Assembly (NCBI RefSeq): GCF_016925495.1
Contig: NZ_CP070491.1
Location: 3,038,001 to 3,102,000 of the forward strand
Direction of reading: 5' to 3'
DNA length: 64,000 nt
From: Methylococcus sp. EFPC2
GTDB taxonomy: Bacteria; Pseudomonadota; Gammaproteobacteria; Methylococcales; Methylococcaceae
The notes under the pieces were generated by a model. It saw only the letters and a list, made by a program, of their open reading frames with translations. It did not search any database and had not been told where the DNA came from. Each line of letters opens with the position of its first letter. Within the stretch, counting starts at the first letter, position 1. Shown piece by piece: positions 24,580 through 60,175 of the stretch. A program made the position numbers and the translations under genes.

Positions 24580-24675
24580 TGGCGGAAGAGAACAGGAGTC
24601 GAACCTGCCCGAGGCCGTCTCACGGCCTCAACCGGTTTTGAAGACCGGCCGCCCCACCGGGGACGATGCTCTTCC
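24580..24675 (-). tRNA. selC: tRNA-Sec (anticodon TCA)
   Basis: 96 nt on the minus strand including encoded CCA (TGG at 24580-24582 on the plus strand). The 5' end GGAAGAGC pairs with the 3' GCTCTTCC-type end over the long acceptor stem. The anticodon loop reads CTTCAAA with anticodon TCA, the long extra arm is a GAGGCCGTGAGACGGCCTC hairpin, and the T-loop GGTTCGACTCC is canonical. Its unusual length and UGA anticodon mark it as selenocysteine tRNA. It lies just downstream of selB. Confidence 0.97.
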
Positions 24676-41830: not shown

Positions 41831-42763
41831 TCAGGCCAAGCCGAAATACGTGGCTCCTATCGATTCGTTGAGCTTGCCCAGATCGATCTGCAGTTCGTCG
41901 ACGAATTGCATGAACTCGGCCTGTTCGAATGTTTCCGGGTGCGTCTGCTCAATGATCTGCTTCAGCGAGCGGACGACGGCGAGCGGGGCCTGATGGTTGG
42001 GCAACCGCCTCAGGCAGTCGCCGAGCCGGCACAAGGCGGCGTAAAAGGCGCGCGGAAACTCGCCGTCCTGCAACAAATACTGCAACACCTCCTCGCGCCG
42101 CACCGCCACCTGCTTGTGGCGCCGGTACATCTGATAGGCGCTGAGCGACCTCAGCACGCTCATCCAGAGGATGTTCTCGAAGGGCTTCAGCGCATCCGGA
42201 TCTTGCGAACTGCCCGCCGCGCGCACGTCCAGGATGCGGGTGACCATATCGGCCCGCTCCAGCTTGCAGCCCAGTTGCATGAACAGATAGCCGGCATCGT
42301 GGCTCATGCAGCCGTCGAAGATGCCGGCGATCTGCTGCACACCCAGGACGATATCCTTCAACAGGCTGTGGCGCGTCTTGGGGGTGTGCCCGTTGGTCAA
42401 TTGCACCTTGGCCTTGAGATACAGGTCGTTGATCTGTTCCCAGGCTTCGCGCGGAATGATGTCGCGGATGGTGCGGGCGTTCTCGCGCGCATAACGGATG
42501 GACGACAGGATGGAGCCCGGATTGTTCTCGTCCGCCAGCATGAACTTCACCACGCGGGCCTCGGTGGTATCGTCATACAGACGGTTGAAGATCTCCTCGT
42601 TGCCGGTAATGGCGATGAGCGAGGACCAGCAGGGCCTGGCGTGCTTGGGCAGATCCAGCACCAGGCTGACGCTGACGTTGACCAGGCGCGCGGTGTTTTC
42701 CGCGCGCTCCAGGTAGCGGGCCAGCCAGTAAAGATTCTCGGCGACTCTCGACAACATGGCCAT
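41831..42763 (-). CDS. Alpha-E domain protein (DUF403)
   Basis: 310 residues from ATG 42763 (MAMLSRVAENLYWLARYLERAENTARLV), the hallmark opening of the all-helical alpha-E family. ARENARTIRDIIPREAWEQINDLYL and YLFMQLGCKLERADMVTRILDVRA follow. It is linked in many genomes to circularly permuted ATP-grasp and transglutaminase-like proteins and to the proteasome homologue Anbu, an arrangement proposed to make and process a peptide-like tag or product. It begins 1 nt after the stop of the ATP-grasp gene. Confidence 0.92.
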   Translation of the reverse strand: MAMLSRVAENLYWLARYLERAENTARLVNVSVSLVLDLPKHARPCWSSLIAITGNEEIFNRLYDDTTEARVVKFMLADENNPGSILSSIRYARENARTIRDIIPREAWEQINDLYLKAKVQLTNGHTPKTRHSLLKDIVLGVQQIAGIFDGCMSHDAGYLFMQLGCKLERADMVTRILDVRAAGSSQDPDALKPFENILWMSVLRSLSAYQMYRRHKQVAVRREEVLQYLLQDGEFPRAFYAALCRLGDCLRRLPNHQAPLAVVRSLKQIIEQTHPETFEQAEFMQFVDELQIDLGKLNESIGATYFGLA

Positions 42764-42764
42764 G

Positions 42765-44216
42765 TCAAACGCCCTCCCAATCCACGATCCAGGTATCCTT
42801 GCTCCCACCCCCTTGCGAGGAATTCACCACGGTCGAGCCCTTGCGCAAGGCGACCCGCGTCAGCCCACCCTGAGTCACATAGGTTTCCCGCCCCGAGAGG
42901 ATGAAGGGCCTCAAATCCAGGTGGCGCGGCTCGACGGCGCCGTCTATCAGGGTCGGCGCGGTGGACAGGGTCAGCAAGGGCTGAGCCATGTAGTTGCGGG
43001 GATCCTTGCGGATGAGTTCGGCGAATTCGTCCAGTTCCTTCTGCTCCGCCTTGGGGCCGATCAGCATGCCATAACCGCCGGATTCGTTGGCCGGCTTCAC
43101 CACCAGCTTGTCCAGATTGGCCAGCACGTACTCGCGTTCCTCCGGATTGACGCAGCGGTAGGACGGCACGTTGGGCAAGATGGCTTCTTCGTTCAGGTAA
43201 TAGCGGATGATGTCCGGCACGTAGGTGTAGACCACCTTGTCGTCGGCCACGCCGGCACCCGGCGCGTTGGCGAGGGCCACCTTGCCCTTGCGCCAGGCGC
43301 GCAGCAGGCCGGGCACGCCCAGCACCGAATCGGGCAGGAAGGCCTCCGGATCCAGGAACAAGTCGTCGACGCGGCGGTAGATCACGTCGACCGGAGTCAG
43401 CCCTTCGATGGTGCGCATGTAGACGGCATCGTCGTCGTCCACGATCAGATCCTTGCCCTCCACCAGTTCCACGCCCATCTGCTGGGCCAGGTAGGAGTGC
43501 TCGAAATAGGCCGAGTTATAGATGCCCGGCGTCAGCACCACGATGTTGGGCCGGATTTTGTCGGGCGCCAGGGAGGCCAGGCACTGGAAGAGCTGAGCGG
43601 GATAATCGTCCACCGGCACGATGGAATAATCCTCGAACAGTTCCGGCAGCACGCGTTTCATCACCAGGCGGTTTTCCAGCATGTAGGAAACACCCGAGGG
43701 CACGCGCAGATTGTCTTCCAGGACATAGACGGTGCCGTCCGCATCGCGCACCAGATCGGAGCCGCAGATATGCGCCCAGACGCCCTGGGGCGGGTCTATG
43801 CCCACGCACTCGGGGCGAAAGTTCTTGGAGTCGGTCAGAAGGTGGGCGGGGAAGACCCCGTCCTTGACGATCTTCTGTTCGTGGTAGAGGTCGTCGATGA
43901 AGCGGTTCAGCGCCGTCACGCGCTGCTTGAGGCCCGCCTCGATACGCCGCCACTCTTTCAGGGTGATGATGCGGGGAATGATGTCGAAGGGCCAGGCCCG
44001 GTCGATGGAGCCTTCGTCGTCCGAATAAACCGTGAAGGTAATGCCCATGCCGAGGATAGCGGCGTCCGCCGCGGCCTTGCGTTCCCCCAGCTCGTTTTCG
44101 CTGAGCTGATCCAGATGCCGCATGAGCGGCGCGGCACCGGGACGCGGCGCGCCCTCCTGCGTGATGAGTTCGTCGTAATATCCATTGACGGGATAATCCT
44201 GCCAGGTGATGGTCAT
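42765..44216 (-). CDS. Circularly permuted ATP-grasp type 2 protein (DUF404/DUF407)
   Basis: 483 residues from ATG 44216, with GAGGAG 6 nt upstream. Permuted ATP-grasp fold expected to form an amide bond with ATP. Features: [58 protein letters not shown] (metal and ATP site), [37 protein letters not shown], and [17 protein letters not shown]. It is the first gene of a two-gene operon with the alpha-E protein, divergent from Anbu. The actual substrate is unknown for this family. Confidence 0.92.
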
Positions 44217-44283
44217 AAAGGCTCCTCGATCTTCTACTGCCATCGAGCAAGATGCAGGCCAGAGGAATCGATGCCGTTTCCCG

Positions 44284-44314
44284 CAGGATCATGGCCGTAG
44301 CCTGCATGATCCTG
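44284..44314. promoter_or_regulatory. Operator-like inverted repeat in the Anbu/ATP-grasp divergent region
   Basis: Perfect 10-bp arms CAGGATCATG (44284-44293) and CATGATCCTG (44305-44314) around an 11-nt spacer, in the 249-nt gap between the ATP-grasp start (44216) and the Anbu start (44466). A third GATCATG occurs 17 nt further right (44331-44337). Arm length, symmetry and position suit a dimeric regulator controlling both directions. No protein is known to me for it. Confidence 0.4.
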
Positions 44315-44465
44315 GTGCATATACGAGATCATGATGGTGCACGGCGCCATCGATTGCACAGGCACAGGCGCCCTCCTCAGGATGCGTCGCGCGCGGTTGA
44401 GAAATCCACGGGCTTCGCTCAAGATTCCCGGCTCACAGCCCTGACATCACCCCACAAGGCACGAC

Positions 44466-45206
44466 ATGACGTATTGCTTAGCGATCAAGGTAAACGACGG
44501 CCTGGTATTTGCTTCGGATTCCCGTACCCACGCCGGCGTCGATTACGCCAGCATCTACAGCAAGATGCATCGGTTCGAACTGCACAGCGACCGCTTCATC
44601 GTGCTGTTGGGTGCGGGCAGCCTGGCGACGACGCAGGCGGTGGTGAATTTCATCCGGCGCGATTTGGAAAACCCGGGGGCCTATGCCTCGCTGAACACCA
44701 TGTCGTATCTGTTCGACGCCGCGGCCTACGTCGGCGAGATCAGTGTGAGGGTACAGGATCAGCACATACCGGCGATGCAGCGCAGCGGATTCAGCGCGGA
44801 GGCGAGCTTCATCCTCGGCGGACAGATACAGGGGCAGCAGCACGAGATCTACCTGATCTATCCGCAGGGCAACTACATCACGGCCTCGCCCGACACGCCC
44901 TACCTGCAGATCGGCGAAACCAAATACGGCAAGCCGATCCTGGATCGCATGGCGTTGCCCACGACATCGCTGGAGGATGCGTCGCGCTGCGCGGTGGTTT
45001 CATTGGACTCGACCATGCGCAGCAACCTCTCGGTCGGCCCGCCCGTGGAACTGGCCTTGTACCGGCGGGACAGCTATGCGATGGGGCATTACCTGAGCCT
45101 GAACACCGATTGCCCGTTCTACGGCGAGATACGGACGCAATGGAACGAAGGCCTGCGCAACGCCTTCAACCTGTTGCCCCGTTTCGACTGGGAGTCGGAA
45201 CCCTAG
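44466..45206 (+). CDS. Anbu, bacterial proteasome-type Ntn hydrolase
   Basis: 246 residues. Ancestral beta-subunit-like peptidase (COG3484). After Met removal Thr1 (MTYCLAIKVNDGLVFASDSRT) is the nucleophile, with Asp17 in SDSR and Lys32 in SIYSKM completing the proteasome-type active site. Ntn folds of this kind assemble into rings or helical turns. It is the first gene of a two-gene run with the transglutaminase and divergent from the ATP-grasp/alpha-E pair, the known Anbu gene set. Its physiological substrate is not established. Confidence 0.93.
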   Translation: MTYCLAIKVNDGLVFASDSRTHAGVDYASIYSKMHRFELHSDRFIVLLGAGSLATTQAVVNFIRRDLENPGAYASLNTMSYLFDAAAYVGEISVRVQDQHIPAMQRSGFSAEASFILGGQIQGQQHEIYLIYPQGNYITASPDTPYLQIGETKYGKPILDRMALPTTSLEDASRCAVVSLDSTMRSNLSVGPPVELALYRRDSYAMGHYLSLNTDCPFYGEIRTQWNEGLRNAFNLLPRFDWESEP

Positions 45207-45331
45207 GATCGGTGATCGGCCTGGGTCGATCCTGAGCAAGCCGAAGGACGACCGCCATAACCCGCAGGGCACGGCGCCACCGTGCCGGATGAGTCCGTGT
45301 AACCCATAGCGCCCGAGTGCGAGAGGAAGCC

Positions 45332-48300
45332 ATGACCATCCGCGTCGCGATCCACCATCAAACCGTCTACCGCTACGACAGCCCCGTCATGCTGTCGCCG
45401 CATGTGTTCCGGCTCAGGCCGGCCGCGCACAGCCGCACGCCGGTCGAGGCCTACGCGCTGAAAATCGAGCCGGCCGAGCACTTCATCAACTGGCAGCAGG
45501 ACCCGTTCGGCAACTACCTGGCCCGGGTGGTCTTTCCCAAACCGACTCGGGAACTCAGCGTCGAAGTGAATCTGGTGGCCGACATGACGGTCATCAATCC
45601 CTTCGATTTCTTCCTGGACGAAAGCGCCGAGCACGTTCCGTTCGACTACGACGAGCGGCTCGGGCGCGAATTGGCGCCCTACCTGGAAGTGCGAGAGAGC
45701 GGCCCCCGCCTGACGGACTGGCTGGCCCGCGTCGATACGTCGGAACAGCACACGGTCGACTTTCTCGTCGCACTGAACCGCAGGCTGCGCGAGGACATCG
45801 ATTATTCGATCCGCATGGAGCCCGGCGTGCAGACCTGCGAAGAAACCCTGGAACGCAAGCTCGGTTCCTGCCGCGACTCCGCCTGGCTGCTGGTGCAGAT
45901 CGCGCGTCATCTGGGCCTCGCCGCGCGCTTCGTCTCGGGCTACCTGGTGCAACTCACCGCCGACCTGAAATCGCTCGACGGCCCGAGCGGACCGGAACAG
46001 GACTTCACCGACCTGCATGCCTGGACCGAGATCTACGTGCCCGGCGCCGGCTGGATAGGCCTGGACCCCACCTCCGGCCTGTTCGCCGGCGAGGGCCATA
46101 TCCCGCTGGCCTGTACCCCCGATCCGGTCAGTGCGGCGCCGGTCACCGGCGGCTTCGTCGGCAAGGCGGAATGCGAATTCGGCCATGCCAACCTCGTGCG
46201 CCGCATCCACGAAGACCCGCGCGTCACCAAGCCCTACAGCGAAGAACAATGGGCGGCCATAAACGTACTCGGCGAACGGGTGGACCACGTGCTGAGCGAA
46301 GGCGACGTGCGCCTCACGCTGGGCGGCGAACCCACCTTCGTCTCCATCGACGACATGGACAGCCCGCAGTGGAACACCGCCGCCGACGGCCCGCACAAGC
46401 GCGAACGCGCCGGCGAGCTGATCCGCCGCCTGCGCAACCGCTTCGGCCCCGGCGGGGTGCTGCATTACGGACAGGGTAAATGGTATCCGGGCGAGCCCTT
46501 GCCTCGCTGGAGCCTGGGCTGCTTCTGGCGCGGCGACGGCGTGGCCATCTGGCGCGACGACCGCCTGCTGGCGGACGAAACGCAAGACTACGGCGTCGAC
46601 GAAAACCACGCGCGCAATTTCGCGCACAAGCTCGCCCTGCGCCTGGGATTGAGCCCGGCCTTCATACTGCCGGGCTATGAGGACAGCTTTTACTATTTGT
46701 GGAAGGAAGGCGCGCTGCCGCTCAACGTCGATCCGCTCGAGGCCAACCTTAAAGACGCACAGGAGCGGCGCCGCCTGGCCCGTCTGCTGGACCGCGGCCT
46801 CAACCGTCCCGCCGGTTACGCCCTGCCGCTGACCTGGAACTACGGCGGCGAGCGTTGGCAAAGCAGCGCCTGGCATTTCCGCCGCGAGGTGATGTATCTG
46901 CTGCCCGGCGACTCCCCCATGGGCTACCGACTGCCGCTGGACTCCATCCCTCACGTCGAGCGCGAACATCATCAGGAGCGCAGCCTGTTCGAGGAGCGCC
47001 CCGCACTCGGCAACGACGTCGGCGAAGTGATGCGGCGCTACAGTTTCCGCGCCGATCACGCCGAGCCGCATCCGGAGATCCAGGCGCAGGAACCGGGCGA
47101 CGTGCGCGGCACACCGCCCGGCTTCGCCCATACCGCGCTCTGCCTGGAGCCGCGCGAAGGGCGTTTGCACGTCTTCCTGCCGCCGCTGACGGATCTGGAA
47201 CACTATCTGGCCCTGGTCGCCGTGGTCGAGGCAACGGCCGCCGAAACCGGCGTCCCCGTGGTGCTGGAAGGCTACGAGCCGCCGCGCGATCCGCGCCTGA
47301 CCCGCTTGCTGGTCACGCCCGATCCCGGCGTGATCGAGGTCAACATCCACCCGTCCGCCGGCTGGCGCGAACTGGTCGACAAGACCCAGGCGCTCTACGA
47401 CGAAGCCCGCCTGGCCCGTTTGAGCACGGAAAAATTCATGCTCGACGGCCGCCATACCGGTACCGGCGGCGGCAACCACATCACCCTCGGCGGCCCCACG
47501 CCGGCGGATAGCCCGCTGCTGCGCCGCCCCGACCTGCTGCGCAGCCTCATCACCTACTGGCAGCACCATCCCGGCCTGTCCTATCTGTTCTCCGGCATGT
47601 TCATAGGCCCCACCAGCCAGGCGCCGCGCGTGGACGAAGGCCGCGACCAGGCCTTGTACGAGTTGGAACTGGCCTTCCGCCAGATACCGAAGGGCGCCCC
47701 CCCGGCGCCCTGGCTGATCGATCGTTTATTGCGAAATCTGTTGATCGACGTGACCGGCAACACCCATCGCGCCGAGTTCTGCATCGACAAGCTCTATTCG
47801 CCGGACAGCGCCACCGGCCGGCTGGGCCTGCTCGAACTGCGCGCCTTCGAGATGCCGCCGCACGCCCACATGAGCCTGGTGCAGGCGCTGCTGCTGCGCA
47901 CGCTGGTCGCCCGCTTCTGGGATCAGCCCTACGAGCACGATCTGGTGCGCTGGAATACCGAACTGCACGACCGCTTCATGCTGCCGCATTACGTCGCCGC
48001 CGACTTGCGCGAAGTGGTCGAGGAACTCAATCAGGCCGGCTACGCCTTCGACTACGCCTGGCTGGCCCCCTTCCTGGAATTCCGCTTCCCGCACTACGGC
48101 CGGGTGCAATATCAAAACGTCGAGCTGGAACTGCGCTTCGCCATCGAACCCTGGCACGTGCTGGGCGAGGAAGTATCCAGCGGCGGAACGGCGCGCTTCG
48201 TCGACTCTTCGGTCGAGCGTCTGCAATTGAAAGTCACCGGCCTGACCGACTCGCGCTACCGCGTCACCTGCAACGGGCGCCCCGTGCCCCTGCGCAACAC

Positions 48301-48640
48301 CGGCACCCGCGGCGAATACGTGGGCGGCGTGCGCTACCGCGCCTGGCAACCGCCCTCGGCCCTGCATCCCACCATAGGCGTGCACGCGCCGCTGGTGTTC
48401 GACCTCGTGGACTTGTGGAACAAGCGCTCCATCGGCGGATGCACCTACCACGTGGCCCATCCCGGCGGTCGCCATTACGAGACCTTCCCGGTCAACGCCA
48501 ACGAAGCCGAAGCCCGCCGCATCGCCCGCTTCTGGCCCTTCGGCCACACCGGCGGCGAATTCGACGCGCAAGCCCTGCAAGCCGACCCGGGCAACAGCCC
48601 CGAATATCCCTATACCCTGGATTTGCGGCTGACGTCTTAA
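45332..48640 (+). CDS. Transglutaminase-like protein with DUF2126 C-terminal region
   Basis: 1102 residues from ATG 45332 with GAGAGGAA upstream; a GTG 15 nt earlier is less likely. The N-terminal 290 residues form a bacterial transglutaminase/cysteine-protease fold with Cys180 (GSCRDSAW), His229 (DLHAWTEIYVP) and Asp245 (GLDPTSG). The remaining 800 residues are DUF2126 (LGGEPTFVSIDDMDSPQWNT, GPHKRERAGELIRRLRNRF, PGVIEVNIHPSAGWREL, HITLGGPTPADSPLLRRPDLLRSL). It is cytoplasmic by sequence. In the Anbu set it is the candidate hydrolase or transferase acting on products of the ATP-grasp/alpha-E pair. Confidence 0.93.
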   Translation: MTIRVAIHHQTVYRYDSPVMLSPHVFRLRPAAHSRTPVEAYALKIEPAEHFINWQQDPFGNYLARVVFPKPTRELSVEVNLVADMTVINPFDFFLDESAEHVPFDYDERLGRELAPYLEVRESGPRLTDWLARVDTSEQHTVDFLVALNRRLREDIDYSIRMEPGVQTCEETLERKLGSCRDSAWLLVQIARHLGLAARFVSGYLVQLTADLKSLDGPSGPEQDFTDLHAWTEIYVPGAGWIGLDPTSGLFAGEGHIPLACTPDPVSAAPVTGGFVGKAECEFGHANLVRRIHEDPRVTKPYSEEQWAAINVLGERVDHVLSEGDVRLTLGGEPTFVSIDDMDSPQWNTAADGPHKRERAGELIRRLRNRFGPGGVLHYGQGKWYPGEPLPRWSLGCFWRGDGVAIWRDDRLLADETQDYGVDENHARNFAHKLALRLGLSPAFILPGYEDSFYYLWKEGALPLNVDPLEANLKDAQERRRLARLLDRGLNRPAGYALPLTWNYGGERWQSSAWHFRREVMYLLPGDSPMGYRLPLDSIPHVEREHHQERSLFEERPALGNDVGEVMRRYSFRADHAEPHPEIQAQEPGDVRGTPPGFAHTALCLEPREGRLHVFLPPLTDLEHYLALVAVVEATAAETGVPVVLEGYEPPRDPRLTRLLVTPDPGVIEVNIHPSAGWRELVDKTQALYDEARLARLSTEKFMLDGRHTGTGGGNHITLGGPTPADSPLLRRPDLLRSLITYWQHHPGLSYLFSGMFIGPTSQAPRVDEGRDQALYELELAFRQIPKGAPPAPWLIDRLLRNLLIDVTGNTHRAEFCIDKLYSPDSATGRLGLLELRAFEMPPHAHMSLVQALLLRTLVARFWDQPYEHDLVRWNTELHDRFMLPHYVAADLREVVEELNQAGYAFDYAWLAPFLEFRFPHYGRVQYQNVELELRFAIEPWHVLGEEVSSGGTARFVDSSVERLQLKVTGLTDSRYRVTCNGRPVPLRNTGTRGEYVGGVRYRAWQPPSALHPTIGVHAPLVFDLVDLWNKRSIGGCTYHVAHPGGRHYETFPVNANEAEARRIARFWPFGHTGGEFDAQALQADPGNSPEYPYTLDLRLTS

Positions 48641-50604: not shown

Positions 50605-51144
50605 TCATTCTGGATACTCAGTCGGTCGAATTCCGAAACGTCCGGAGTGTCCCCAATTTATGGGATAAATACCCAGCGCCACAAAGCGATGAAAGCTTGA
50701 GTACGGCCATTCGGCCACCTTTTGCACATACCCGTGCTTGACCGGATTCCAGTGTATGTAGTCAAAATGGGCATTAAAGTCATCTTGGCTGATTAAAAGA
50801 TGAGCCCAAAACCGGCGTTGCCACACGCCACGCTCCCTCCGCTTTGCCCGACTTGCGGAAACCCGTTCGCCTGCGGGTAATGCACGGGAAAACCGGCTCT
50901 TGATCAAACTCCAGCGTGTCGAATAGTCCGCATCGCCCGGCGGTAGCGTCCAGATGCAATGCAAATGGTCCGGCATGACGATTATCGCTTCCATCGTGAA
51001 AGGCCTGCGGCGCTTGACATAACGAAATGCCTCGCGCAGCAGGTCTATCCGCTCGACCAAGAGATTGTTATCCCGCCGCTCCGCCAAATTAACCGTATAA
51101 AACCAGGTTGATCCGGGTATATAGAAGCGGCGATAGTCGGTCAT
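50605..51144 (-). CDS. REP-associated tyrosine transposase (RAYT, Y1 family)
   Basis: 179 residues. Single-strand HuH-type endonuclease/transposase domesticated to move or process REP sequences. YRRFYIPGSTWFYTVNLAER opens the domain; the metal-binding pair is in IIVMPDHLHCIWTLP, and the nucleophilic Tyr lies in HFDYIHWNPVKHG. REP units lie at both ends (50569-50596 and 51162-51189), the standard RAYT arrangement. It is full length with no frameshift. Confidence 0.92.
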   Translation of the reverse strand: MTDYRRFYIPGSTWFYTVNLAERRDNNLLVERIDLLREAFRYVKRRRPFTMEAIIVMPDHLHCIWTLPPGDADYSTRWSLIKSRFSRALPAGERVSASRAKRRERGVWQRRFWAHLLISQDDFNAHFDYIHWNPVKHGYVQKVAEWPYSSFHRFVALGIYPINWGHSGRFGIRPTEYPE

Positions 51145-54442: not shown

Positions 54443-54458
54443 TGGCTCATTAATTGCT
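54443..54458 (+). promoter_or_regulatory. Sigma-54 (RpoN) promoter
   Basis: TGGCTCATTAATTGCT matches TGGCAC-N5-TTGCW at all but one position, with GG (54444-54445) and GC (54456-54457) separated by exactly 10 nt. Transcription should start near 54469, leading into the small ORF at 54491 and the TPR-like gene at 54622. Confidence 0.7.
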
Positions 54459-55305: not shown

Positions 55306-56565
55306 TTACGACGCGACCGTCCCCTGCCCGAGGTCGCTCGCCTTCGCTTGCAGGGCATTGAGCTCTTCCTCGACGCCGGCGGCGTGGGTCAGCTCGGCCA
55401 CGTTGCGCCGGGTGAAAAAGCCCTCGAAATTGCCGTAACGCTGCACGTATTCGATGATGAGGGAGGAATGCTCCGACGCGCTGGAGAATATCTGCTTGAG
55501 CCCTTCCTCCTTGGAGCCGATGACATCCAGCAGAAATTTCTTGCCCTGGCCCGCGATCTGCCGCACCACGTATTCGATGTTTTCCGCGCCGTCGCGCTCG
55601 CCGTCGCGCACGGCCAGGGCTAGGTGGTGCAGGCGCGGGCCGTAGTTGCGCACGAAATTCTCGGTGGGCGAAGGCAGGCCGTCGAGGTGATTGACGAAAT
55701 AAGGCGTGTTGTTGGCGGTGAACACCTTGGCCGGGCTGAGCAATTCGTTGCCGGCGTGGACACTCTTGGTGACGTTGGTGGAGGAGTTCTGGTCCTTGAT
55801 GTCGAAGGATCCCCAGTAGTAATAGCTGGACCAGGACAGCCATTCGAGCAGGGCGACCTCGCGGTTCTGGCTGTAGACGCGCGTGGCCAGGTGGTCGATG
55901 GGCAGAATCAGATCGTCCAGTCCCAAACGGCTCTGCAAGGCCTTGGCGGCGAGGTAGGCGTCCTGCACGTCCGCGCGGATGCTGCTCAGGCCCAAGGCAT
56001 AGACGCGCAGGTCCTCCGGCAAGCGTTCCATGTAGGCGACGATGTTGTGGGTATAGGGCGAAGGCTTGCTGACCGCGAAATTGCCCGGCATCTCCAGCTT
56101 GCGCAGATCGTCCTGGGAAAAGAAACGGAATTCGCGGGTCTTCTGCAGCTCCACCACGCCGTGCAGATCGGTGACCCTCAGCACTTCGCCGATGTAGCGG
56201 CTGTTGGGTTTGGTCGCGCCGATGGGGAAGGCCTCGTTGAGGCTGCGAAAGATGTCGCGTCGGTCGGGGTATTTGACATCGCGTATCAGGATGTCCGGAT
56301 GGTCCATGCTCGCCCGCAGGACATGCGTGGAGTGCGACTCGGCCTCCAGCGTGACCAGGTAGTGGTAGGGCGTCATCAGGCACAGCTCGGCGACATAGTC
56401 GATGCCGTGCCCCGGATCGACCGCGATGATCATGGCCTCGATCTCGCGAATCATCTCGGTCAGGCCCAGGCGGTCCCTCTCTTCCATCAAGCGGGGCAGA
56501 TAGGCCTCGAAAAACTCCGAATTCTTCTTGTCCCCATGTCGATCAAAAGCCATGGAATCCGGCAT
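55306..56565 (-). CDS. HPPD-like VOC-fold dioxygenase, probably nitrogen regulated
   Basis: 419 residues with AGGAGG 9 nt before ATG. The C-terminal half has the vicinal-oxygen-chelate layout of 4-hydroxyphenylpyruvate dioxygenase: metal ligand His225 in LPIDHLATRVYS, His314 in RLHHLALAV, and Glu372 in LIIEYVQRYGNFEGFF. A GLKQIF strand precedes the Glu, and FDIKDQNS matches the FDIKGE region. The N-terminal 200 residues (DYVAELCLMTPYHYLVTLEA, RYIGEVLRVTDLHGVVELQ) are less familiar. An iron-dependent oxygenase is likely; the substrate is unknown and true HPPD activity doubtful. It is divergent from nifL, with a sigma-54-type promoter of its own. Confidence 0.6.
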   Translation of the reverse strand: MPDSMAFDRHGDKKNSEFFEAYLPRLMEERDRLGLTEMIREIEAMIIAVDPGHGIDYVAELCLMTPYHYLVTLEAESHSTHVLRASMDHPDILIRDVKYPDRRDIFRSLNEAFPIGATKPNSRYIGEVLRVTDLHGVVELQKTREFRFFSQDDLRKLEMPGNFAVSKPSPYTHNIVAYMERLPEDLRVYALGLSSIRADVQDAYLAAKALQSRLGLDDLILPIDHLATRVYSQNREVALLEWLSWSSYYYWGSFDIKDQNSSTNVTKSVHAGNELLSPAKVFTANNTPYFVNHLDGLPSPTENFVRNYGPRLHHLALAVRDGERDGAENIEYVVRQIAGQGKKFLLDVIGSKEEGLKQIFSSASEHSSLIIEYVQRYGNFEGFFTRRNVAELTHAAGVEEELNALQAKASDLGQGTVAS

Positions 56566-56709
56566 GCCGGCGACCCTCCTGGATCCGAGATGAACTGTCA
56601 GTGGCCGGGGCGATGTGCGAGATCGAGCCCGGATGGCTCCCAGCCGGTCGGCAGTTTCCCGCGCTTACGGGATGCATCGAACGAGCGTCGGCTGAATGAT
56701 GGAAACACA

Positions 56710-56725
56710 AGCAATTCGGGTGCCG
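56710..56725 (-). promoter_or_regulatory. Sigma-54 promoter for the HPPD-like gene
   Basis: On the minus strand CGGCACCCGAATTGCT fits TGGCAC-N5-TTGCW with one mismatch, and GG/GC are exactly 10 nt apart. The expected start is near 56699, giving a leader of about 134 nt before ATG 56565. The NtrC-like site at 56824-56840 lies about 133 nt upstream of that start. Confidence 0.6.
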
Positions 56726-56823
56726 GAACGGCAGGATATCCCCTGGCCCCTCGCCGCGGCCATTCCCCAGGATCGAAGGCGAACGGTCGCACGGCCATGC
56801 GCCCAGCCCGAACGTGGGCGCAT

Positions 56824-56840
56824 TGCCCCAAAATGGTTCA
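56824..56840. promoter_or_regulatory. NtrC-like binding site between two divergent sigma-54 promoters
   Basis: TGCCCCAAAATGGTTCA matches the palindromic NtrC consensus TGCACCA-N3-TGGTGCA at all but two fixed positions. It lies about -133 for the HPPD-like gene and about -200 for nifLA, both normal enhancer distances, so one site could serve both. Confidence 0.6.
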
Positions 56841-57002
56841 AATGAGGCGAGCCGCCCGCGGGCTGCGCACCGTTAACGGGATGGGCCTAGCCGCAACGGC
56901 CGCCGAACACGGCTTTTCCGCAACTTGGCACGTCCTCACGGTTAAGCCGACTCCTGTTCAGGCCTGTCCCGCCACCACCGTCTCGTGATAATGCCAATCT
57001 GC

Positions 57003-57018
57003 AGGCACCATCCTTGCT
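57003..57018 (+). promoter_or_regulatory. Sigma-54 promoter of nifLA
   Basis: AGGCACCATCCTTGCT fits TGGCAC-N5-TTGCW with one mismatch; GG (57004-57005) and GC (57016-57017) are 10 nt apart. It is 33 nt before the nifL ATG. NtrC-activated sigma-54 transcription of nifLA is the arrangement known from Klebsiella. Confidence 0.75.
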
Positions 57019-57051
57019 TGCAGACAACGAGACCCTCCCCACCGCCGAGCG

Positions 57052-58653
57052 ATGCCTATGCCGCAGATCCCCGAGCAACCCCAGGATACCCTTGCGACCG
57101 AAGAAGGTCCCAGCCCATCCGAACCCGCGCTATCGGCCGAGTTGCTTGCCGAAGCCGTGCGTCAGGCCCCGGTCGCCATCTCCATCACCGATGCCCACGC
57201 CAACATCATTTATGTGAATCCCAGCTTCACGGAAACGACCGGCTATGCACCGGAACAGAGCATCGGGCGCAACGAATCCATGTTGTCGGACAAGCGCACG
57301 CCCAAGCAGGTTTACGAGGAACTGTGGGGACGCCTGCAGGCCCAGCAGCCTTGGCATGGCTGCCTGGTGAACCGGCATCGCGATGGCGGCCGGTATTTGG
57401 CCGACCTCACCATCGCCCCGATTCTGGACAAGAATCAACGCACCACTCATTACATCGGCATGCACCGCGACATCACCGAAGTGTTCCGCCTGGAACAGCA
57501 GGTCTTGAACCAGAAGGTGCTGATCGAAACCGTGGTGGACTCGATGCCGGTCGCCACGTTGCTGCTGGACGAGGCGAAGAACGTCTTGCTGGACAACCGC
57601 ATGTACAAGGCGCTGGTTTCGGACCTGCGTCTGGAGCAGCCCACCCGGCTGATCATCGACGCCTTGCGTAAAGACATGGGCGAGGAATGGAACAAGCTCA
57701 AGCATTCGGGCCTGACCTTCCGCAACCGGGAGTTGCGCATCGACCTGGGCGGCAGCCGCATGCCCAAATGGTATGCCTGCTCGGGAGCCTGGTTCAGCCG
57801 GGGCGACGACAGCGTCGACGGATTTTTCGAAGAAAAGCGGCAGACCTATCTGCTGCTGATCCTCAACGACGTCACCCAGCAAAAGAAACACGAGGAAGAG
57901 ATGCGCATCAACGCGATGCGCGCGCTGATGTCGGAAGAAGAACGAATACAAAGTCTCCGGGAAACCCTCTCCGCCGCGATCCATCACATCCAGGCCCCCC
58001 TCAATCTGCTCACTGCGGCCAAGACCCTGCTGGCGCGGCGCGGCCAGGACCAGAGCAACCAAGCCCTGAACGACATCCTCGAACAAATCCTCAGCAGCGG
58101 GGAAAACTCCGTCCGGCGCTTGAAAAACTGCCTGCCCGACGTCGACGCCGCGCGGATGACGCCGGTCAACCTGAACCAGTTGCTGCACGAAACCATAATC
58201 CTGCTGACCGATCGCCTTCTGGCCAGCGGCATCGTGGTCGACTGGAAACCCAGCCCCGTCCTGCCCAGCTTGACGGGCATGGAACACCGGCTGCGCACTC
58301 TGTTCAAGCAGATCATCGAAAACGCCATCGACGCGATGAACCAGGGTGGATGTGTAATCCGCGAGCTGCGCATCGCCACCTGGTCCGACGACCAGTTGGT
58401 GCACGTCCGCTTCGAAGACACCGGCCCCGGCATACCCGACGACTTGCGCACCAAGGTCTTCGAGCCCTTTTTCTCCACCAAGACAGGCGGCGCCCGGCCG
58501 CATACCGGCATGGGCCTGGCATTGGCCCAGGAAGTGATCAACCAGCATCAAGGGCTGATCCGCATCGATCCCGGCTATCGTGACGGTTGTCGAATCGACG
58601 TGCAATTCAACCTCCGCTCCGCCCACGCAAAGAGACCCTACGCCCATGGTTGA
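57052..58653 (+). CDS. nifL: Nitrogen fixation anti-activator NifL
   Basis: 533 residues. It binds and inhibits NifA in response to oxygen/redox, ADP and fixed nitrogen. PAS 1 (about 35-150; [21 protein letters not shown], the FAD-binding redox sensor in Azotobacter NifL) is followed by a second PAS-like region (about 155-285), a degenerate H-box ([20 protein letters not shown]) and a HATPase-like domain ([36 protein letters not shown]). GHKL motifs are intact, as in NifL, which binds ADP without kinase activity. It overlaps nifA by 8 nt. No nif structural gene is in the window. Confidence 0.94.
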
Positions 58654-60175
58654 TCGCGTCACACTGATCGAGCGAGAGCTGAATGCCCTCTATCAGGTCA
58701 GCCGCATACTGAGCAGCACCCTGCCGCTCAAGGACAAGCTGCAAGCCGTGCTGGAAATCCTCCACGACCAGGCCGGCATGCGCTCCGGCATGCTGGCCCT
58801 GCGCGAGCAGGAAACCGACGCCCTGGTGGTGTGCGCGGTGCGCCGCGAGGACGGCGGAGTGGTCACGGAACCGGTGCGCTACGAACCCGGCGAGGGCCTC
58901 ATGGGCATCATCCTGGATGCCGGCCGCACCGTGGTGGTGGAGCGCATCGCCGACGAGCCGCGCTTTCTCGGCCGGCTCGCGCTCTACGATCCGGCCCTGC
59001 CATTCATCGGTTCGCCCATACGCGTGGGCGCGGACGAATTGCTCGGTGTGCTGGCCGCCCAGCCGGTGGACGCGGAACTCCTGGACGAGCGCGGCCGCTT
59101 CATGGAAATGGTCGCCAACCTCATCGCGCAAAGCGTCGGCCTGCTGCGCGGCATGGAGCAGAAACAGCGCGATCTGACTGCCGAGCGCGACCAGCTCAAG
59201 CAAAGCCTGCGCAAGAACTACGGCTTCGACAACATCATCGGCCATACGTCGGCCATGTTGCGGGTCTTCGAAGTGGTGCGCCAGGTGGCCAAATGGAACA
59301 GCACCGTGCTGATACGCGGCGAATCCGGCACCGGCAAGGAAGTCATCGCCAACGCCATCCACTATCACTCCGCCTGCGCCGGCGGCCCTTTCGTCAAGCT
59401 CAACTGCGCCGCCCTGCCGGACAATTTGCTGGAATCGGAACTGTTCGGCCACGAAAAGGGCGCCTTCTCCGGCGCCATCAGCCAGCGCAAGGGGCGTTTC
59501 GAGCTGGCCCATCACGGCACCATCTTCCTCGACGAAATCGGCGAGATTTCCCCGTCCTTCCAGGCCAAACTGTTGCGGGTGATACAGGAAGGAGAATTCG
59601 AGCGGGTGGGCGGGACCCATACGCTCAAGGTGCAGGTGCGCATCGTCGCCGCCACCAACCGCGACCTGGAAGAAGAAGTCGAGGAGGGCCGTTTCCGCGA
59701 GGACTTGTATTACCGGCTGAACGTCATGCCCATCAACATGCCGCCCCTGCGCGAACGCCTGGAGGATATCCCGGAACTCGCACAGTTCCTGCTCGACCGC
59801 ATCTCCAAGCAGCAGGGCGGACGCCCTCTGGAAATCAAGGAGAGCGGCATCCGCCTGCTGATGCGCCACGACTGGCCGGGCAACGTGCGGGAATTGGAAA
59901 ACACCCTGGAGCGCGCCGCCATCATGAGTGCCGACGGCATCATCGACCGTCAAACCATCGCCCTGACCGGCCTGGAGGACGAAGCGATCCTGGCTTCGCC
60001 CACCACGCCCAAACCCGAGTTCGACACCGAGGGGATGGACGAACGGGAGCAGGTCATCGCCGCCCTCGAACAAGCCGGCTGGGTGCAAGCCAAGGCCGCC
60101 CGGCTCCTCAACATGACGCCGCGCCAGATCGCCTACCGGGTCCGCATCCTCAACATCAAGATGAAGCACATTTGA
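58646..60175 (+). CDS. nifA: Nif-specific sigma-54 activator NifA
   Basis: 509 residues from ATG 58646, inside the nifL end. GAF domain (about 20-165), AAA+ domain (about 205-445; Walker [12 protein letters not shown], Walker [11 protein letters not shown], arginine-finger block [13 protein letters not shown]) and Fis-type helix-turn-helix ([33 protein letters not shown]). The sigma-54 contact loop reads GAFSGA where GAFTGA is usual. The Cys-rich interdomain linker of oxygen-sensitive rhizobial NifA is absent, consistent with control by NifL. It binds TGT-N10-ACA sites such as that at 54384. Confidence 0.96.

Follow-up and report, generated by a model that had tools for sequence, protein, structure and literature searches.

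Anbu is a relative of the proteasome which was proposed to stand close to the proteasome ancestor and for which no function has been confirmed (PMC5666114, PMC6376114); in one of these two reports, none of the Anbu proteins tested cleaved the substrates tried. Induction of the P. putida Anbu operon under nitrogen limitation was described there (PMC5666114, PMC6376114), and two further data sets report PP_2685 and PP_2688 at log2 values of 4.44 and 3.99 on nitrate as compared to ammonium (PMC8050072 Table 2) and PP2685-2687 as 11.1-, 6.6- and 7.1-fold up under nitrogen limitation (PMC3325844 Table 2). PP_2685-2688 were written of as likely NtrB/NtrC-controlled (PMC7801951). In Table 2 of that report, loss of rpoN leaves PP_2686-2688 induced 14.2-, 16.0- and 19.6-fold, levels similar to those of the wild type, in which PP_2685 (Anbu) rises only 1.12-fold. 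As far as this table goes, the rpoN-mutant data stand against sigma-54 dependence of this sister operon; urtA-D, which were also assigned to NtrB/NtrC, are induced in the rpoN mutant too (PMC7801951), and because the urt genes behave likewise, the data set is possibly unreliable with regard to the loss of sigma-54. For B. cenocepacia H111, an ntrC mutant was reported in which I35_5080, 5081, 5082 and 5083 stand at log2 -8.2, -9.4, -9.4 and -6.0, and these genes, described as DUF404/DUF407 (5080), DUF403 (5081) and transglutaminase proteins (5082 and 5083), were listed as targets shared by sigma-54 and NtrC (PMC5491218). Going by the available parts of these reports, control of an Anbu-type cluster by NtrC and sigma-54 (Burkholderia) and its induction by nitrogen limitation (Pseudomonas) are already published. 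The available part of a Caulobacter NtrC paper holds nothing on the cluster (PMC10274813), the word 'dioxygenase' is absent from the available text of the two Anbu papers (PMC5666114, PMC6376114), and a literature search by title and start of the abstract found no paper joining an oxygenase to Anbu or nifL; likewise, no transcript data were found for the oxygenase gene described in the following.

The window, meaning the whole stretch of 64,000 nucleotides from Methylococcus sp. EFPC2 that was analysed, holds a cluster of this type and, next to nifLA, a gene for a putative oxygenase. In window coordinates, the features are:

41831-42757, minus strand: alpha-E protein (PF04168, 298 bits)
42765-44216, minus strand: circularly permuted (CP) ATP-grasp type 2 (PF14403, 559 bits; PDB 3n6x, E 2e-163)
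44261-44246, minus strand: sigma-54 site TGGCCTGCATCTTGCT of the ATP-grasp/alpha-E operon (10/12)
44303-44341, no strand: two NtrC-like sites, TGCATGATCCTGGTGCA (44303, 12/14) and GAGATCATGATGGTGCA (44325, 10/14), 22 bp apart
44466-45206, plus strand: Anbu proteasome-type protein (PDB 5loy, 5lox, 5nyj and 5nyf, E down to 1.6e-82; PF00227)
45332-48640, plus strand: transglutaminase plus DUF2126, putative amidoligase (PF09899, 1350 bits; PF01841, PF08379)
55306-56565, minus strand: HPPD-fold putative Fe(II) oxygenase by predicted fold, 419 aa, triad H225/H314/E372
56725-56710, minus strand: sigma-54 -24/-12 site CGGCACCCGAATTGCT, facing the HPPD-fold gene (10/12, exact GG-N10-GC)
56824-56840, no strand: NtrC-like palindrome TGCCCCAAAATGGTTCA, candidate shared enhancer (12/14 of TGCACCA-N3-TGGTGCA)
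57003-57018, plus strand: sigma-54 -24/-12 site AGGCACCATCCTTGCT, facing nifL(A) (10/12, exact GG-N10-GC)
57052-58653, plus strand: nifL (TIGR02938, 705 bits, cut-off 242)
58646-60175, plus strand: nifA (ATG 58646, scanned as ORF 58580-60175; TIGR01817, 670 bits, cut-off 529)

Anbu, CP ATP-grasp, alpha-E and transglutaminase genes lie together at 41831-48640 and form an Anbu gene cluster, from which the oxygenase gene is 7-14 kb away (about 12 kb from the ATP-grasp/alpha-E operon). An IS200/Y1-like transposase gene (50605-51144, minus strand) is located between the two and is a possible agent of local rearrangement; elsewhere in the window, a selenocysteine tRNA gene (24580-24675, minus strand) was predicted by ARAGORN. 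DUF403, DUF404/407 and the large transglutaminase we take to be alpha-E, ATP-grasp and the DUF2126 fusion, respectively. With names equated in this way, the window cluster resembles I35_5080-83 of B. cenocepacia H111 in its ATP-grasp, alpha-E, transglutaminase and DUF2126-fusion genes, which were named as targets of NtrC and sigma-54 in that organism, and differs from it in the oxygenase, which is not mentioned in the available part of the respective report (PMC5491218). P. putida PP_2685-PP_2688 likewise comprise a proteasome-like beta subunit, a transglutaminase, a conserved hypothetical and an ATP-grasp protein; the differences, as far as the available text goes, are that no oxygenase is mentioned there, that induction of PP_2686-2688 persists in the rpoN mutant, and that the window adds an HPPD-fold partner, preceded by a separate sigma-54 site, and has the large DUF2126 protein beside Anbu.

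The original prediction had labelled the gene to the left of nifL as HPPD-like, which was borne out at the level of the predicted fold. The window protein is reached by none of the Pfam and NCBIfam models, gave no match to TIGR01263 (HPPD) and stays short of the cut-off of that family; among 76 family members, 34 weakly match Glyoxalase_4 (best E 0.0047) and five match the HPPD model at E 1 or better (best 0.018). Sequence searches of the PDB yielded no oxygenase relative at E 0.001. The structure model calculated from the 76 sequences (pLDDT 83, pTM 0.85; a 12-sequence alignment gave an unusable model with pLDDT 45) was found to match hydroxymandelate synthase with Z 26.9 over 307 residues at 13% identity and human HPPD with Z 26.7 over 320 residues at 17% identity, Foldseek being in agreement, and by this model the protein is predicted to adopt the two-module VOC fold. 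H225, H314 and E372 are invariant in the 76 sequences. H314 and E372 were placed on the second His and the Glu of the HPPD metal site by local hhalign, with 1.6% probability and E 0.032 and with both profiles shallow, while H225 was placed as the first metal His by the IDHL motif only. The likeness to the two-module VOC oxygenases HPPD and hydroxymandelate synthase consists in the fold over most of the length, the His-His-Glu triad and the QIF and E-x-x-Q-R motifs; the difference consists in scores below the HPPD and VOC family cut-offs and in His313, which the window protein possesses where HPPD has a Gln before the second metal His and which hints at a substrate other than 4-hydroxyphenylpyruvate. 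True HPPD as the identity of the protein was rejected on grounds of the family cut-offs and of its coexistence with true HPPD: the latter was found in four of 38 family genomes (G004-G007), G004 and G005 of which also hold a full-length oxygenase copy, and gave no match in the window genome. The protein might also be a DUF1338/HglS-type enzyme; no structure of this type is among the 50 structural matches listed. Taken from the model, the window protein likely works as an HPPD-fold oxygenase without being filed as HPPD.

For the 486-bp gap between oxygenase gene and nifL (56566-57051), divergent sigma-54 sites with an NtrC-like palindrome in between had been predicted, and scoring recovered all three. 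The consensus strings used were TGGCACG-N4-TTGCW for sigma-54, TGCACC-N5-GGTGCA for NtrC and TGT-N10-ACA for NifA. GG-N10-GC in its sigma-54 context is present at 56725 (minus strand), 57003 (plus strand) and, upstream of the ATP-grasp gene, at 44261 (minus strand). TGCCCCAAAATGGTTCA scores 10/12 on the NtrC string, with a mismatch at one position per arm, and its match of 15/17 as first stated is consistent with the 12/14 of the longer form given above. Its centre is at enhancer distance from both promoters, i.e., about 108 bp from the -24 element of the oxygenase promoter by coordinates and 171 bp from that of the nifL promoter, and the window genome encodes both ntrC (732 bits) and rpoN (501 bits) above the curated cut-offs. 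From the position of the sites, transcripts would start at about 56699 for the oxygenase, with a leader of about 134 nt, and at about 57029 for nifLA. The oxygenase leader exceeds what is usual, as 160 bp separate the start codon from the sigma-54 site in the window and 41 of 49 sites in relatives lie 48-80 bp from the start codon. NifA control of the gap was rejected, given that the TGT-N10-ACA type of site is absent there. When the gap was shuffled 6000 times with dinucleotides preserved, any such sigma-54 site was seen in 311 cases, one per strand in four and an NtrC-like site in 215; the trio in its order, with a sigma-54 site on each strand and the NtrC-like site between them, was seen in none. 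Across the 64-kb window, 10 core sigma-54 sites of at least 10/12 compare to 6.7 +/- 2.0 expected from 30 Markov sequences, and eight NtrC sites of at least 10/12 compare to 3.9 +/- 1.9. Single sites this good are not rare in the window, being mildly enriched, and it is the ordered combination that is rare. Site statistics confined to the window carry little weight, so that the case was built on relatives. A further sigma-54-like site (TGGCTCATTAATTGCT, 10/12) is located at 54443-54458 on the plus strand, upstream of a small plus-strand ORF (54586/54625-55140) without a family match, which is convergent with the oxygenase gene.

In relatives, a sigma-54 site was counted within 350 bp upstream at a score of at least 9/12 with GG and GC in place, or at least 10/12 without. 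By this measure, a site precedes the oxygenase gene in 41 of 90 cases and the ATP-grasp gene in 50 of 76, as compared to 36 of 332 for the remaining genes of these loci (p 3e-12 and 4e-22, respectively); regions with less than 120 bp of upstream sequence, or lacking a match close to the start, were left out of the counts. After removal of duplicates, 34 of 70 oxygenase genes compare to 4.7 by shuffling and 39 of 60 ATP-grasp genes to 4.0, while alpha-E, which is usually operon-internal, stays at background (3 of 36 versus 3.0 by shuffling); related sequences stay partly dependent even after this step. Divergent oxygenase/ATP-grasp pairs possess sites facing both genes in 17 of 20 cases, and where the oxygenase gene is located downstream in a chain that ATP-grasp heads (n = 18), its own site was found in two cases and a site at the head in 15. 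By this pattern, the predicted sigma-54 sites track the transcription unit. Of the 80 named loci (the best 80 of 269 confirmed relatives), 57 have a site either directly before the oxygenase gene or at the chain head, and in the other 23 neither was found. The closest family relative (L010, 83% identical) has a -24/-12 element without G at -13, and in the Methylobacter-type relatives L124, L127, L129, L130 and L137 two overlapping sigma-54 sites 5 bp apart were seen upstream of the oxygenase gene. Separate transglutaminase genes have upstream sigma-54 sites in 13 of 36 cases (p 2e-4) and may be part of the regulon. In family genomes lacking the oxygenase (21), the ATP-grasp upstream region carries a sigma-54 site in all 17 examined, several of which come from one genus, and an NtrC-like site of at least 11/14 in seven of these 17, as compared to about 1% of shuffled stretches of the same length.

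The activator site was approached by an unbiased scan of all 6-base inverted repeats with spacers of 3-9 in 90 regions upstream of sigma-54 sites, leaving out regions that lack such a site, are shorter than 220 bp or contain Ns, in addition to those excluded from the counts above. The top repeat, GCACCA-N3-TGGTGC, was present in 31 of 90 regions, the maximum for any repeat in 12 shuffled sets being seven; it is the core of the NtrC palindrome, recovered de novo. In 70 non-redundant regions, the NtrC motif at 11/14 or better was found 21 times versus 0.5 by shuffling, and permuted half-sites in the same regions gave 0.6 (maximum 5). Sites of this quality are present in five of 25 deduplicated regions on the oxygenase side versus 16 of 45 on the ATP-grasp side, the oxygenase side being the weaker, and eight oxygenase-side NtrC sites in relatives lie 88-146 bp from -24. 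Comparison of upstream regions across relatives and scoring of the gap against shuffled sequence both turned out in favour of the predicted sites, which recur far beyond chance, and nitrogen control of the HPPD-like gene through sigma-54 and NtrC is very probable. That part of the postulated nitrogen-network link is supported; the tie to nifLA, which had been postulated along with it, is not.

The identity of nifL and nifA as originally read was corroborated by their TIGR02938 and TIGR01817 matches, and the nifL promoter of the window is of a type common in the family: of the 25 nifL genes in the family, 22 (window included) are preceded by a sigma-54 site, and NtrC-like sites of at least 9/12 are present in 10 of those 22 as compared to 1.8 expected. 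In contrast, the upstream neighbour varies (resembling rnfA by eye in two of 12 loci examined, a DUF190 gene in three of 25), and the oxygenase gene holds this position in the window only and in no other family genome. Among the 38 family genomes searched, the oxygenase gene was matched in 17 (fragmented in one, G006) and nifL in 25; apart from the window genome, where the two are adjacent, eight genomes hold both genes far apart or on separate contigs, and in eight of the 17 nifL was not found, several of these assemblies being incomplete. Beside the oxygenase gene of the 80 named relatives (best 80 of 269; 56 with at least 12 kb of flank), nifL or nifA was found in none; recurrent linkage to nif genes was seen in neither set (0/80 named, 0/8 family). 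The window has a DUF190 gene as well (67% identical), located beyond the oxygenase gene, which was first read as interposition of the oxygenase between DUF190 gene and nifL; this reading is weak because the orientation of the window DUF190 copy with respect to nifL is the opposite one. On a second contig of 90 kb, the C-terminal half of a histidine kinase (C2:54954-55709) is 50% identical to NifL, and a sigma-54 activator domain (C2:45887-46387) is located about 9 kb from it. Two nitrogen-regulated units thus seem to have been brought together beside nifLA in a lineage-specific manner (no further strain of this species or genus was among the genomes compared), and nitrogen control of the oxygenase gene looks old, its place beside nifLA new.

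The neighbourhood which does recur is that of the Anbu cluster. Profile search of named genomes confirmed 269 oxygenase relatives, and the best 80 of these, a set that leans to close ones, include Gammaproteobacteria, Methylophilaceae and Zetaproteobacteria among others by record title. Near the oxygenase gene, a CP ATP-grasp, alpha-E, Anbu or DUF2126 gene was found in 60 of these 80 loci, and in 45 of 56 when only loci with 12 kb of flank or more are counted; no cluster gene was found in the covered flanks of 20 of the 80, or 11 of the 56 with full flanks. In a class sample of 321 genomes with the oxygenase gene in 25 and alpha-E in 90, alpha-E was present in 23 of 25 genomes with the oxygenase versus 67 of 296 without (p 4e-12); the cluster is common without the oxygenase, as 67 of the 90 alpha-E genomes have no oxygenase gene. 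By recurrent neighbourhood and co-occurrence alike, the oxygenase qualifies as a partner of the Anbu gene cluster. A phylum sample of 398 genomes holds the oxygenase gene in seven, window genome included, and plasmid records gave no match. Family genome G006 contains a broken oxygenase gene copy (G006:C90:70584-70984, L234). In its assembly, which is 93% complete, neither Anbu nor alpha-E was found, which suggests that the oxygenase and the Anbu/alpha-E system were lost together. The oxygenase gene is best placed with the nitrogen-starvation-induced Anbu cluster and not with the nif genes.

Other explanations have to be weighed against this assignment. The oxygenase might be a nitrogen-fixation accessory, co-regulated with nifLA and serving nitrogenase or its regulation, as the single intergenic region with a promoter directed at each gene and the family-wide conservation of the nifL promoter sites would allow; given that nifL or nifA is near the gene in none of the 80 named loci (best 80 of 269), that nifL was not found in eight of 17 family genomes with the gene and stands apart from it in eight others, and that the gap lacks a NifA-type site, this is very unlikely. 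Chance or relic matches, with ordinary promoters in use, would be in line with the mild enrichment of single matches this good across the window, with the long leader, with the 23 of 80 relatives without a site (best 80 of 269) and, as far as the available data go, with the P. putida operon still being induced in an rpoN mutant (PMC7801951). Against this stand the ordered trio, which was never obtained in 6000 gap shuffles, and the strong enrichment and position clustering of the sites in relatives, which render such an explanation highly improbable.

Sigma-54 dependence could also hold with an enhancer-binding protein other than NtrC. The sigma-54 activator domain is strongly matched 20 times in the genome, and the NtrC motif reaches 11/14 or better in just five of 25 deduplicated oxygenase-side regions. 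The unbiased scan returned the NtrC motif as its top palindrome, however, and the ATP-grasp/alpha-E/transglutaminase cluster of B. cenocepacia is NtrC-dependent in the data available from that report (PMC5491218), and a different activator is considered unlikely. The reading preferred here, a two-way sigma-54/NtrC region with the oxygenase in an NtrC-controlled Anbu regulon and a lineage-specific adjacency to nifLA, is held with good confidence.

Sequence comparison, which yielded the sites, their conservation, the gene neighbourhood, the co-occurrence and, by modelling, the predicted fold, points to the following course of events. When fixed nitrogen becomes short, phosphorylated NtrC would bind to the palindrome at 56824-56840 and by looping open sigma-54 polymerase at the minus-strand oxygenase promoter; from the same site, it would probably, or perhaps, also activate the plus-strand nifLA promoter, so that one site would serve both. 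Induction of the ATP-grasp/alpha-E operon, via its own sigma-54 promoter and tandem NtrC-like sites, would run in parallel. The oxygenase would thereby act as a member of the NtrC-controlled Anbu regulon, to the genes of which it is usually a near neighbour, divergent partner or operon member in relatives, and the enzyme may oxidise what the Anbu/amidoligase system produces, be it a small molecule or a peptide. The new part, as far as searched, is the predicted HPPD-fold partner with its invariant His-His-Glu triad.

A conserved and apparently co-regulated oxygenase narrows what the Anbu pathway can be. It moreover provides a handle for finding the metabolite: it is a putative Fe(II) enzyme, its active site is predicted, its gene has a promoter of its own and the inducing condition is defined. 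A wider interpretation, according to which this HPPD-fold oxygenase family, as yet undescribed, is a dedicated further component of the Anbu system in methylotrophs and in sulfur- and iron-oxidisers, belongs to an oxidative starvation pathway and shares its enhancer with nifLA in the organism studied here, is put forward tentatively and remains somewhat doubtful. If true, it would make the Anbu system an oxidative nitrogen-starvation pathway for a metabolite or peptide, and not only a protease.
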